Of a stretch of DNA of 64,000 nt, positions 46,933 to 50,990 are shown piece after piece. A program made the translations under genes and the position numbers. The notes beneath the pieces were generated by a model that ran no database searches, was not told the origin of the DNA, and saw nothing but the letters and a program-made list of their open reading frames with translations. Source of the stretch: Colwellia sp. 12G3 (GTDB lineage Bacteria > Pseudomonadota > Gammaproteobacteria > Enterobacterales > Alteromonadaceae); assembly GCF_002836775.1 (NCBI RefSeq), contig NZ_PJAQ01000017.1, forward strand, positions 186,001 to 250,000, written 5' to 3'. Numbering within the stretch: position 1 is the stretch's first letter; each line of letters starts with the position of its first letter.

Positions 46933-47283
46933 TTATGCGTCTGCTGAACTATCATCTGCTGAGGCATTATTTGCCGCGGCTGCTTTAACTAAGGTTTGTA
47001 ATTCACCTTGTTGAAACATTTCCATAATAATATCACATCCGCCAACTAACTCACCTTCAACCCATAATTGTGGGAAGGTTGGCCAATCAGCATATTTAGG
47101 TAGTTCTGCACGAATATCAGGGTTTTGTAAAATATCAACATAAGCAAATTTTTCTTCACAAGAAATTAATGCCTGTGATGCTTGTGATGAAAAACCACAA
47201 TTTGGTAATTTAGGAGACCCTTTCATATATAGCAAGATTGTATTTTCGCTAATTTGTTCTTTAATGCGCTCAATTGTATCCAT
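46933..47283 (-). CDS. grxD: Monothiol glutaredoxin 4
   Basis: GrxD binds and delivers iron-sulfur clusters, often with BolA-type partners. It is 116 residues (E. coli 115). The CGFS active site starts at Cys29 in KGSPKLPNCGFS, and WPTFPQLWVEGELVGGCDII is the cis-Pro and glutathione-binding block. It is divergent from sodB, as in E. coli, and 65 bases upstream of the peroxiredoxin stretch on the same strand. Confidence 0.96.
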   Translation of the reverse strand: MDTIERIKEQISENTILLYMKGSPKLPNCGFSSQASQALISCEEKFAYVDILQNPDIRAELPKYADWPTFPQLWVEGELVGGCDIIMEMFQQGELQTLVKAAAANNASADDSSADA

Positions 47284-47550
47284 AGTACCCTCTATTAATT
47301 AATACTTATTCTATTCTTTTGAATTGATATATCTAACATATGGAGATAAAAAATAAATTATCAACTCTTTTCAATACAAGAAAATAGAATAAGTACTATT
47401 ATCTAAAATAGCTTAGCTATTGATTTTAAGATGTATAGCCTTGATAATTGCCTTCACAATACCAATATATAAATAATACTTGAGTATTTTACTCAAGTTT
47501 ATATAAAAACACACCCATTTTTGATTAAAACTTACAATTAGGAGAGCATA

Positions 47551-48132
47551 ATGTCCATTGAATTACCTGCATTACCTTACGAGCAAAATGCATTAGAGCC
47601 ACACATTTCAGCAGAAACATTATCATTTCATTACGGCAAGCATCACAACACTTACGTTGTAAAGCTTAATGGTTTAATTGGCGGTACTGAATTTGAAAAT
47701 AAAAGCTTAGAAGAAATTGTTAAAACCTCTTCAGCTGGAATTTTTAATAATGCAGCACAAATATGGAACCATACTTTTTATTGGAATAGCTTAGCGCCAA
47801 ACGCTGGTGGTGAACCATCAGGTGATTTATTAGCTGCAATCATTAGTAACTTCGGTTCTTTTGATGAATTTAAAGCTAAATTCACTGATAGTGCTATCAA
47901 CAACTTTGGCTCTAGCTGGACTTGGTTAGTAAAAAATGCCGACGGCAGCCTAGCTATTGTTAATACATCAAATGCAGCAACACCATTAACTGACGAAGGT
48001 GTTACACCACTTATTACTGTTGATTTATGGGAACATGCTTACTACATAGATTACCGCAACGTAAGACCTGATTACCTTAACGGTTTTTGGGCATTAGCTA
48101 ACTGGGATTTTGCTCAAGCTAACTTTAGCTAA
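47551..48132 (+). CDS. sodB: Iron superoxide dismutase
   Basis: SodB converts superoxide to oxygen and hydrogen peroxide in the cytoplasm. It is 193 residues, as in E. coli. Metal ligands are His27 in LSFHYGKHHNTYV, His in AAQIWNHTFYWN near 74, and Asp and His in DLWEHAYYIDYRN near 157. The NFGSSWTWLV block with Gln-independent layout and AGGEPSG fits the iron type. A good SD (AGGAGAG) precedes ATG. It is divergent from grxD. Confidence 0.97.
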   Translation: MSIELPALPYEQNALEPHISAETLSFHYGKHHNTYVVKLNGLIGGTEFENKSLEEIVKTSSAGIFNNAAQIWNHTFYWNSLAPNAGGEPSGDLLAAIISNFGSFDEFKAKFTDSAINNFGSSWTWLVKNADGSLAIVNTSNAATPLTDEGVTPLITVDLWEHAYYIDYRNVRPDYLNGFWALANWDFAQANFS

Positions 48133-48721
48133 TAAAGACAAAACCTATTCATATCCGTTCCTCTTGCTCTTTGAAGTGGAACGGGTATAAACCTATCACA
48201 GAAGCCAGCCCTTTATTAGACCTTAACAAATAAACTGAGCTCTGCTTAGTAATTTTCTCTATCCCCCTATTTTACAAGCTTCTTTGTTAAATTCACTTGC
48301 AATAGGCCAGCTATTGACGCGTAAAGTTGCCTCGATTTAAGAAAAACATCAAGCTAGACATATTGGAATAATTTACATTATATAATTCATAAGCTTAACT
48401 ATCTATTAAACAGAGTTCAGGTTAAATAGGCTATATAGCTTCAATTTAAGATTTCGTCACCTAGTTTTTCAGACATATATCTCCGCACTGTTTTCATTAT
48501 TTTTATCCCTAAAAAATATAGTTTATTTAATGTATAAAAAACACACTTACACTAAGCTACTTTTAATAACACCATATCTTCTTGCATATAAATTCAACCT
48601 AAAGGCCTTTAAATTAGTGTTTTAGACATGATTACCGAATAGTTAGTCATTAAATTATCATGATAAAAAAGGGACTTTTTCGCATTAGATTTTCTAATGT
48701 AACTATTGCATTTTTTTTAGG
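48133..48721. other. Long gene-free spacer after sodB
   Basis: About 590 bases with no credible open frame. A short hairpin repeat lies at 48151-48190. A promoter-like sequence and candidate small RNA follow this stretch. Confidence 0.55.
48151..48190. repeat. Ends-only derivative of the cysZ-linked MITE
   Basis: ATATCCGTTCCTCTTG and TGGAACGGGTATA are close to the terminal repeats of the element at 41082-41344, but only about 12 bases separate them, so it is a hairpin of the ends with the interior lost. Confidence 0.6.
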
Positions 48722-48750
48722 TTGTCTAAATAAATCAAGACGATTAATAT
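48722..48750 (+). promoter_or_regulatory. Possible sigma-70 promoter of the candidate small RNA
   Basis: TTGTCT, a 17-base spacer and TAATAT. It faces the orphan terminator at 48904-48932; the boxes are plausible but not perfect. Confidence 0.4.
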
Positions 48751-48756
48751 AGCTTT

Positions 48757-48932
48757 GTTTTCTGAGTTAGCGCAATGATGTTTTTTCTCTTACTCCCAAA
48801 GAGCTATCATTAACTAGATTACTCGAATCGATATTGACTATCTTTTCTCTCTGACATGTTTCTTGGAATTTAATTTCCTTCTATCAACTTGATATTTGAG
48901 TTGGCCCGCACTTAGTTTGCGGGCTTTTTTTT
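48757..48932 (+). ncRNA. Candidate small RNA with its own terminator
   Basis: About 176 bases between a promoter-like sequence and a strong intrinsic terminator, with no open frame. Near the 5-prime end a hairpin is formed by AATGAT/ATCATT (48774-48811) with an inner CTCTT/AAGAG stem. The middle is unpaired and U-rich, as in Hfq-dependent RNAs. It matches no RNA family I know. It could instead be a very long sodB 3-prime UTR. Confidence 0.4.
48904..48932 (+). terminator. Strong orphan terminator
   Basis: GCCCGCA-CTTAGTT-TGCGGGC followed by eight T residues. The T run is only on the plus strand, so it does not serve lolE, which reads the other way; the nearest plus-strand gene is sodB, about 770 bases upstream. 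Confidence 0.85.
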
Positions 48933-48967
48933 GTCTTTTTTTCGCGGAAAAGCGGTACTATGGCTAC

Positions 48968-50245
48968 TTATTGCTGCCCGAGCACTTGCGCCGGTTCTAT
49001 TTTTGTTGCTCGCCATGCAGGGTATATCGTTGCCAATAAGCTCATAATTAGCGCAGTGATAACAGTGGCATAAACATCTGTCGCATTTAAAACACTAGGT
49101 AAGTAGTCAATAAAATAGACATCGCCAGACAAAAACGTAATGCCCATCAATTGCTCTACAGTACTAATTATACCCGTAAGATTTAGGGCTAAATAAACAC
49201 CGCATATAGCGCCTAATAGGCTGCCAACAACACCGTTAACCAAACCTTGAACAATAAACGTCAACATAATAGTTTTTGAACTTGCTCCCATGGTCTTTAA
49301 AATAGCGATATCACCTTGTTTTTCATTAACCGCCATGATTAAGGTTGAAACAATATTAAAACTCGCTACGGCTATGACCAACACTAAGACAATAAACATC
49401 ACCATGCGCACCAATTGAATATCATTAAATAAATGTCCCTGGCTATGAGTCCAGTTATTAAGATAAACATAGTGATCAAAGTTATAAGCAACTTTTCGTG
49501 CAATTTTAGGGGCAGAAAAAACATCGGTAACTTTTAAGCGAATACTTTGTGTTTCATTAATTTTATATCCCATAACATCACTGGCCAAAGAAAGTGGAAT
49601 ATAAGCTAAAGTTTCATCTATTGTGCCACCAAATTTAAAAATACCGACAACTTCTACCTGTCGAGTGATTGGCGCTGAAAACATTTTTTTTACATCATTA
49701 CCTCCCTCTGGCGGTGGTAATAGTAGCTGTATTTTATCACCGAGCTCTACGGAAAGTTTTTTCGCCACGCCACTACCAATAACAATGCTATTTTTATTTA
49801 ACGCTGTGGCCATTAACCCTTGCCAATTACCAGCAATGATATAATTATCAATACTTGAAACTTTCTTTTCAAGTTGTGCATCGACACCACGAACTTCTAT
49901 AGCCTTTAGCTTTAGACCATGTTGCAGCATTCCCGTCATTTTAATAACAGGTGCAGCCGCAATGACGTCAGGCTCAGTTTGTACTTTCTTAATACTTTCT
50001 CGCCAATCTTTTATTGGCTCATTAACACTGACTAACTCAACGTGCGGCACTATAGAAAGAAGCTTTTGAGATAACTCTCGTTCAAAGCCATTCATAGCGC
50101 TTAACACGACAATAAGAACCGTTACACCTAACGCAATACCAATGGTAGAAGAAGCGGAGATAAAGGCGGAAAAACCATTGCCGTGTCGACTGCGAACATA
50201 ACGCCAGCCCAAAAAAAGACTTAACGGTTTAAACATGGCGTTCAC
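48968..50245 (-). CDS. lolE: Lipoprotein-releasing ABC transporter permease LolE
   Basis: LolE is one of the two permeases that extract outer-membrane lipoproteins from the inner membrane and hand them to LolA. It is 425 residues: an N-terminal membrane segment (about 25-48) within the LolCE motif GNGFSAFISASSTIGIALGV, a periplasmic MacB-like domain, and three C-terminal membrane segments (about 275-300, 325-350, 385-405). Its start overlaps the end of lolD by 17 bases, or 8 if the fourth codon is used. It is last in lolC-lolD-lolE. Confidence 0.92.
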   Translation of the reverse strand: MNAMFKPLSLFLGWRYVRSRHGNGFSAFISASSTIGIALGVTVLIVVLSAMNGFERELSQKLLSIVPHVELVSVNEPIKDWRESIKKVQTEPDVIAAAPVIKMTGMLQHGLKLKAIEVRGVDAQLEKKVSSIDNYIIAGNWQGLMATALNKNSIVIGSGVAKKLSVELGDKIQLLLPPPEGGNDVKKMFSAPITRQVEVVGIFKFGGTIDETLAYIPLSLASDVMGYKINETQSIRLKVTDVFSAPKIARKVAYNFDHYVYLNNWTHSQGHLFNDIQLVRMVMFIVLVLVIAVASFNIVSTLIMAVNEKQGDIAILKTMGASSKTIMLTFIVQGLVNGVVGSLLGAICGVYLALNLTGIISTVEQLMGITFLSGDVYFIDYLPSVLNATDVYATVITALIMSLLATIYPAWRATKIEPAQVLGQQ

Positions 50246-50990
50246 TAACCTCAGATTTTATCTCAACTCTAGTCATGTCATTTATAACAGCTGATGCATG
50301 TTCACCGTCATCAGTTAGTGGTATTAATTTTCCTTGTACTAACTTTACTTGTCTATCCATGCGTTTAGCTAATACTAAGTCGTGAGTGACAATAACAAAG
50401 CTTGTATTAGCCGTATTATTTAAACTGCGAATTAATTGATAAATTTGCTCTGCAGTATCGCTATCTAAATTACCTGTAGGCTCATCAGCTAAAACCAAAG
50501 AGGGTTTAGTTACTAATGCTCGAGCAATAGCTACGCGTTGACGTTCGCCTCCTGATAATTGTGAAGGTCGGTAATTGATGCGATGAGACAAACCCACTTG
50601 ATCGAGCATCTCTTTAGCCGCTAACAATGCTTGCTTTGGCTTTTTACCTTGGATCATTAAAGGCATAGCAACGTTTTCTTGTGCGGTAAACTCCATCATC
50701 AAATGATGAAATTGATAAATAAAACCAATATGTTGATTTCTAAATTTAGACCTTTCTTTGTCAGATAACTGGTGAATATCAATATCATTAATAAGCACGT
50801 GCCCAGAACTTGGGGAGTCTAAAGCACCAGCAAGGTGTAAAAAGGTACTTTTTCCGCAGCCAGAACTACCGACTACGGCGAGTAGCTCACCTTTATCAAC
50901 GCTTAGCTCAAGATCATTTAATACTTTGGTTTCAATATCACCTTGTATATATGATTTTGAAAGTTGACGACACTGTAATACTTTACTCAT
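50229..50990 (-). CDS. lolD: Lipoprotein-releasing ABC transporter ATPase LolD
   Basis: LolD is the ATPase of LolCDE. It is 253 residues. Walker A is GSSGCGKST near residue 42, the LolD motif region FIYQFHHLMMEFTAQENVAMPLMI follows, the signature is LSGGERQRVAIARAL near 143 and Walker B is LVLADEPTGNLDS. A C-terminal extension of about 20 residues goes beyond E. coli LolD (233). It lies 12 bases after lolC and overlaps lolE. Confidence 0.95.
   Translation of the reverse strand: MSKVLQCRQLSKSYIQGDIETKVLNDLELSVDKGELLAVVGSSGCGKSTFLHLAGALDSPSSGHVLINDIDIHQLSDKERSKFRNQHIGFIYQFHHLMMEFTAQENVAMPLMIQGKKPKQALLAAKEMLDQVGLSHRINYRPSQLSGGERQRVAIARALVTKPSLVLADEPTGNLDSDTAEQIYQLIRSLNNTANTSFVIVTHDLVLAKRMDRQVKLVQGKLIPLTDDGEHASAVINDMTRVEIKSEVSERHV

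Follow-up and report, generated by a model that had tools for sequence, protein, structure and literature searches.

Positions 48757–48932 (+) of the window, that is, the whole 64,000-nucleotide stretch of Colwellia sp. 12G3 DNA analysed here, very probably constitute an independent gene for a small regulatory RNA that is widespread in a marine bacterial family, which we take, from its named members, to be the Alteromonadaceae of GTDB. Probably, this RNA of about 176 nucleotides is controlled by GcvA and works in a GcvB-like manner, with another sequence, another seed and another locus. The analysis shows directly that the unit is conserved and structured, that an operator lies ahead of it, that this operator and the one at gcvA are identical, and that GcvB was not found.

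A preliminary description of the DNA, made from the sequence alone, had proposed, for 48722–48932, a candidate small RNA, so far undescribed, between a promoter and a terminator that belong to no other gene. Comparative evidence supports the proposal, and no Rfam family matches at threshold; the layout is real, but that span starts about 40 bases late and misses the operator (Table 1). By direct reading, the promoter TTGTCT-17-TAATAT is present, and the terminator consists of GCCCGCA (48904–48910) and TGCGGGC (48918–48924) followed by eight T (48925–48932), with the sodB end (48132) about 770 bases upstream of it and the U-rich middle located where it had been put. No open reading frame (ORF) of at least 30 amino acids lies wholly between the −10 hexamer and the terminator, in line with the absence of an open frame claimed before. 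The 5′ hairpin also exists, but the 48774–48811 given for it is only the inner part of the fold. Judged by the consensus alone, the promoter is weak, with 8 of 12 matches, and a promoter scan of 47000–50500 that needed 9 therefore left it unlisted; the case thus rests on comparison. The terminator was the top of five terminator-like matches in 47000–50500, where 2.1 ± 1.7 were expected. Just past sodB, a CCGTTCC/GGAACGG hairpin (48155–48184), found by eye, may end the sodB transcript.

Table 1. Features of the small RNA locus (window coordinates) and of the leader beside gcvA.
Feature	Position	Strand	Remarks
GcvA operator IR1, ATTAGATTTTCTAAT, palindrome ATTAG-N5-CTAAT	48684–48698		Centre about −66; predicted from sequence and published motif
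T-rich kept block at the place of GcvA IR2	48707–48721		Centre about −43; conserved in alignment A2; assigned by position only
−35 hexamer TTGTCT	48722–48727	+	TTTGTC/TTGTC in register across relatives
−10 hexamer TAATAT	48745–48750	+	Varies among relatives
Small RNA transcript, 176 nt	48757–48932	+	Start inferred from −10 and conserved GTTTTCTG
5′ stem-loop SL1	48761–48818	+	Covarying
CU-rich core CTATCTTTTCTCTCTGACATGTTTCTTGGAA, conserved; probably the seed for pairing	48838–48868	+	Alignment
Small GGAA/UUCC hairpin	48865–48878	+	96.3% of cells paired, zero both-side changes
Pre-terminator stem-loop, CAACTT/GAGTTG	48885–48903	+	Folding and covariation
Intrinsic terminator with eight T	48904–48932	+	6 of 7 pairs changed on both sides
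gcvA-side leader	L065:1575–1697 (own genome, contig C19, about 284505–284627); L212:1241–1347; L223:1225–1337		Divergent from gcvA

A search with the DNA of 48640–48960 gave matches in 21 of 24 same-genus genomes, so that the conservation in sister species, named earlier as a test, is present; of 16 further genomes searched in the order, 2 gave short weak matches. A pattern scan of genome contigs returned 18 records, namely 16 from Colwellia and one each from Thalassomonas and Litorilituus. Conservation profiles, computed from the window plus 20 relatives and from an alignment of 27 sequences, start near the palindrome at 48684, fall in the SL1 loop, are high in CTATCTTTTCTCTCTGACATGTTTCTTGGAA, and stop with the terminator. 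The −35 hexamer and the 5′ end are conserved over the 27 aligned sequences, as are the terminator and the CU-rich middle; the −10 is more variable, with the forms TAATAT, TATAAT, TATGAT and TAAACT. A coding role is disfavoured by indels that are not multiples of three and by the absence of an ORF. A small ORF in the core (ATGTTTCTTGGAATTTAA) was rejected by eye, its length not being conserved and the purine-rich site before it being absent.

The fold of the transcript beat 199 of 200 shuffles (z −2.57), and covarying stems in relatives, suggested beforehand as a check, were found in two alignments. In A2 (27 sequences including the window, realigned with upstream anchors and fitted to no model), paired cells make up 94.9%, and changes on both sides are seen in 7 of 31 pairs, a count matched by 2 of 500 shuffles; slid versions gave at most four such pairs, and the real changes lie mostly in SL1. 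In A3 (39 sequences fitted to covariance model R1, a fitting that favours the structure), both-side changes occur in 18 of 26 pairs versus 6.2 ± 1.7 in shuffles, none of 500 of which reached this number, and at most 8 in slid versions. RNAalifold missed SL1 on an earlier alignment, A1, the likely cause being seven rows misaligned at their 5′ ends. Collectively, the locus shows the marks of an independent intergenic small RNA gene: a promoter (by conservation, not by consensus score), a terminator, covarying structure and no ORF.

Model R1 matched 10 of 295 genomes of the order, that is, the own genome, eight from other genera of the same family and one from a different family (f6); within the own family, 9 of the 24 genomes listed were matched. 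The nine R1 loci outside the own genome were used to build model R2, which matched 55 of 79 chosen genomes, comprising 39 of the 57 family members from other genera (six of which had entered the model), 15 of 21 members of the genus, and the f6 genome. We checked 33 R2 loci, including 23 of the 25 weakest, the remaining two (G210 and G231) being among the R1 loci checked. In many distant members, the core has a form around GACATGTTCCCTGGAA instead.

The published GcvA site is ATTAG-n5-CTAAT, with centres at −65 (IR1) and −43 of the gcvB start (PMC5002191). The window operator, centred at −66 from the inferred (unmapped) RNA start, agrees with this GcvB-type spacing of about 65. The palindrome is exact in 36 of 39 RNA loci, carries one mismatch in one and two in another, and is missing in L011; eight of the 39 have it at −85 or −87, because the model begins inside a longer 5′ end. 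Among the nine R1 loci used for R2, it is exact in eight and has two mismatches in one, and in 28 of the 33 checked R2 loci it stands within 160 bases upstream with no more than one mismatch, its position being −72 to −74 in 23 of the 28.

Moreover, the palindrome recurs in the own genome, with a TTTTT middle, directly ahead of a LysR gene about 49 kb from the window RNA, and this gene is gcvA (448.9 bits; cut-off, 288). The 16-mer CATTAGTTTTTCTAAT is found in 47 copies in 30 of 39 genus genomes (reversed control pattern, once), all of which precede either gcvA (27) or the RNA (20). Forty-two of these loci were tested, 26 lying before gcvA and 15 before the RNA; the 42nd lies where a contig ends and was judged by homology to be a gcvA promoter, and the remaining five sites were placed at the RNA by coordinates. 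The operator of the window RNA, ATTAGATTTTCTAAT, has a different middle and is outside the 47 copies. Of 30 family loci fetched beside gcvA, 26 have the operator (at most one mismatch).

The two genes also co-occur: in the genus, the RNA is present in 30 of 32 genomes with gcvA and in 3 of 7 without it (Fisher p 0.0055), where a 'true' gcvA was defined by a cut of 395 bits, set after seeing the gap above paralogues (at most 306 bits), and RNA presence combines two methods (DNA search and model R2). The two gcvA-positive genomes without the RNA are drafts (completeness, 87% and 94%). By these counts, losses of gcvA and of the RNA tend to coincide in the genus. In G014, G021, G022 and G041, of the same genus, true gcvA, the RNA and the 16-mer operator are all missing together. 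In the wider family the association is weaker: model R2 gave no RNA match in 17 of 56 other-genus genomes with gcvA, owing to true absence or to the limits of the model. At gcvT, the operator (at most one mismatch, within 600 bases upstream) was found in none of 13 genus loci (among L143–L157); in other families it is exact at 3 of 5 gcvT loci. Judged from the sequences, the GcvA operator seems to have been lost from the gcv operon in Colwellia, so that GcvA may control little there beyond itself and this RNA.

GcvB resembles this RNA in being a small RNA of about 200 nt with an unpaired pairing region and a strong terminator, and both have a GcvA palindrome about 73 bases ahead of the start. 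Genera with GcvB-like RNAs are given in passages of PMC1557403. The Rfam model of GcvB, RF00022, exceeded its cut-off in 31 of the 148 genomes scanned from the order, but in not one of the 10 listed from the own family, of which two gave matches of about 28 bits; it was not found in the own genome, where the window reached 17.3 bits at 48792–48933, below the gathering score of 42 bits. To our knowledge, no genus named in that publication as having GcvB-like RNAs belongs to the Alteromonadaceae. In the Rfam-matched GcvB loci fetched, a GcvA-like gene adjoins 30 of 30, and a like operator (at most two mismatches) is present in 16 of 30, at −72 to −74 from the first base of the model. Twelve sub-cut-off GcvB matches were fetched. 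Ten (L172–L181) were rejected for having neither the seed nor an adjoining true gcvA, the LysR gene adjoining L180 being of 26% identity; the other two, L184 and L185, in family f9, adjoin gcvA with the seed and look real.

As to the origin of the transcript, the preliminary description had also considered a sodB 3′ UTR source. The upstream plus-strand gene is indeed sodB, both in the window and at 10 of the 20 genus loci aligned, which would accord with a stable fragment of its 3′ UTR or with read-through from it. We reject this origin as extremely improbable, since the other 10 loci have no sodB in the fetched stretch, eight of them having ybgC–tolQ (named by eye) upstream on the other strand, and since the promoter with its operator is conserved directly at the 5′ end of the RNA. 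Conserved linkage downstream of sodB was thus not observed. In the wider family, ybgC or tolQ is near 30 of the 33 checked R2 loci, which also argues against a sodB product; ybgC itself is nearby in 28 and ruvB in 27, with locus L269, probably wrongly oriented, entered as a miss. The nine R1 loci outside the own genome have ybgC–tolQ-like genes upstream (by eye), and TolQ, YbgC, RuvB and RuvA were named with NCBIfam on locus L189. The common site of the RNA is ruvB–RNA–ybgC. In the genus, lolE replaces ruvB in 19 of 20 loci, the remaining one ending at a contig edge, and with sodB upstream in half of the genus loci the RNA therefore appears orphaned in the window, where LolE scores above its NCBIfam cut-off (486.1 vs 439) and SodB slightly below (343.5 vs 348). 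As to the regulator, the palindrome could belong to a LysR-type protein other than GcvA, in which case the RNA would be unrelated to glycine; paralogues of about 270–306 bits exist in some genomes, and three genus genomes (G003, G018 and G019) have the RNA yet no true gcvA. We consider this very unlikely, because the palindrome fits the published GcvA motif (PMC5002191) and the 16-mer stands at gcvA itself for 27 of its 47 sites, and at the RNA for the other 20, across the 39 genus genomes.

The relation to GcvB is a closer question. A true GcvB orthologue that moved from gcvA to the ruvB–ybgC site and diverged beyond recognition would explain why operator and spacing agree, and with them probably the regulator, and model R2 indeed matched several GcvB loci weakly at the place of GcvB itself, the best match, at E 0.17, not being significant. 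We regard such descent as possible but doubtful, given that no significant match of sequence or structure was obtained in either direction, that the GU-rich R1 seed of GcvB (TTGTGTTTG), present in 29 of the 30 Rfam-matched loci and missing in all 30 family loci fetched beside gcvA, is not in the window RNA, which has the CU-rich core instead, and that the neighbourhood differs, GcvB being divergent from and next to gcvA, whereas this RNA sits between ruvB (or lolE) and ybgC (or sodB). As three defining GcvB features failed, the RNA was not filed as GcvB. To non-orthologous replacement, in which the GcvA of this family lost gcvB (in Colwellia apparently also the gcvT operon) and was rewired to an unrelated small RNA that lies at the ruvB–ybgC site and has a different seed, we give about an even chance.

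For the GcvA-controlled small RNA as proposed here, we infer binding and activation by GcvA, a response to glycine, a part for Hfq, repression, and targets. GcvA, the LysR-type glycine regulator, would bind the palindrome at 48684–48698, probably also the block at −43, and would activate the RNA when glycine is plentiful, as at gcvB, although GcvA might instead repress the RNA. By its probable control, the RNA should work like GcvB: the conserved CU-rich core would pair with purine-rich translation-initiation regions, covering ribosome-binding sites, and the RNA would repress a GcvB-like regulon of amino-acid and peptide uptake and serine–glycine metabolism. Hfq is probably involved, the U8 tail being suited to it. 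Against the proposal, a duplex scan of the starts of 249 ORFs, which covered 304 kb or about 6% of the genome, gave the real core no advantage over shuffled ones, 16 of 60 of which did as well. A 20-base, GU-tolerant complement of the core occurs at seven places in the own genome besides itself (reversed control, 2) and pointed to no convincing target; only one of the seven (L201) overlaps a likely start codon, that of a membrane-protein-like ORF, and is unconvincing. Among the ten best duplex partners of the core, a list that overall is not above shuffles, is an ORF at about 356887–358263 of own contig C19 (−23.0 kcal/mol), presumably L-serine dehydratase-like. A pairing between the core and the leader beside gcvA (GAGAAAAGGU), noticed by eye, was given no weight because both are A- or U-rich.

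That leader, divergent from gcvA where other families have gcvB, is conserved and strongly folded (GUAGAUGAAGGAC ... UCCCAACCC ... GGUCC ... AUCUAU), with z from −2.1 to −4.9 in three examples and 22 sequences aligned. In L065, it lies 73 bases past the start of the GcvA operator and ahead of an apparent small exported-protein gene. No Rfam match was found at that place, and it looks like an undescribed riboswitch-like leader. Also near gcvA in the own genome, L065:2167–2272 gave sub-threshold matches on both strands to STnc370 (36.8 bits against a gathering score of 54) and MicX (23.5 bits against 75), which are probably due to a strong inverted repeat or terminator.

Like the preliminary description, which recognised no known RNA family, an Rfam scan gave none at gathering score for the window RNA; relaxed matches, including JA04 (31.2 bits) and rseX (29.1 bits), were all below it. 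In distant members, the 3′ half matched suhB/mmgR (RF00519) at 28.0–30.7 bits in three loci (gathering, 41) and anti-hemB (RF02837) at 25.8 and 32.5 bits in two (gathering, 49.5), which we read as a UUCCUUC stretch plus the terminator. Both suhB/mmgR and anti-hemB have been described in other proteobacterial classes. The sibling small RNAs NgncR_162/163 of Neisseria, again another proteobacterial class, are among the closest known systems, likened by description and not by sequence, and the passages describing them state no GcvA control. Among the matches listed in a search of open PubMed Central titles and abstracts, none describes this RNA; a Shewanella screen with a comparison to Colwellia 34H (PMC5471319) contains, by term search of its main text, no occurrence of GcvB, ybgC, ruvB or tolQ. 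The RNA forms a new family within a circuit of known type, and covariance models R1 and R2 make it available for marine bacterial annotation.

In Gammaproteobacteria, GcvB counts as the master RNA for amino-acid uptake, and the present RNA seems to take its place in these bacteria. A marine family has kept both regulator and operator, but among its genomes examined none has a recognisable GcvB, and another RNA stands under the same operator. If replacement is the true history, the same glycine signal would drive a differently built post-transcriptional regulon. The family thereby allows testing of how a core regulatory RNA gets replaced, and of whether its targets persist as the seed changes.
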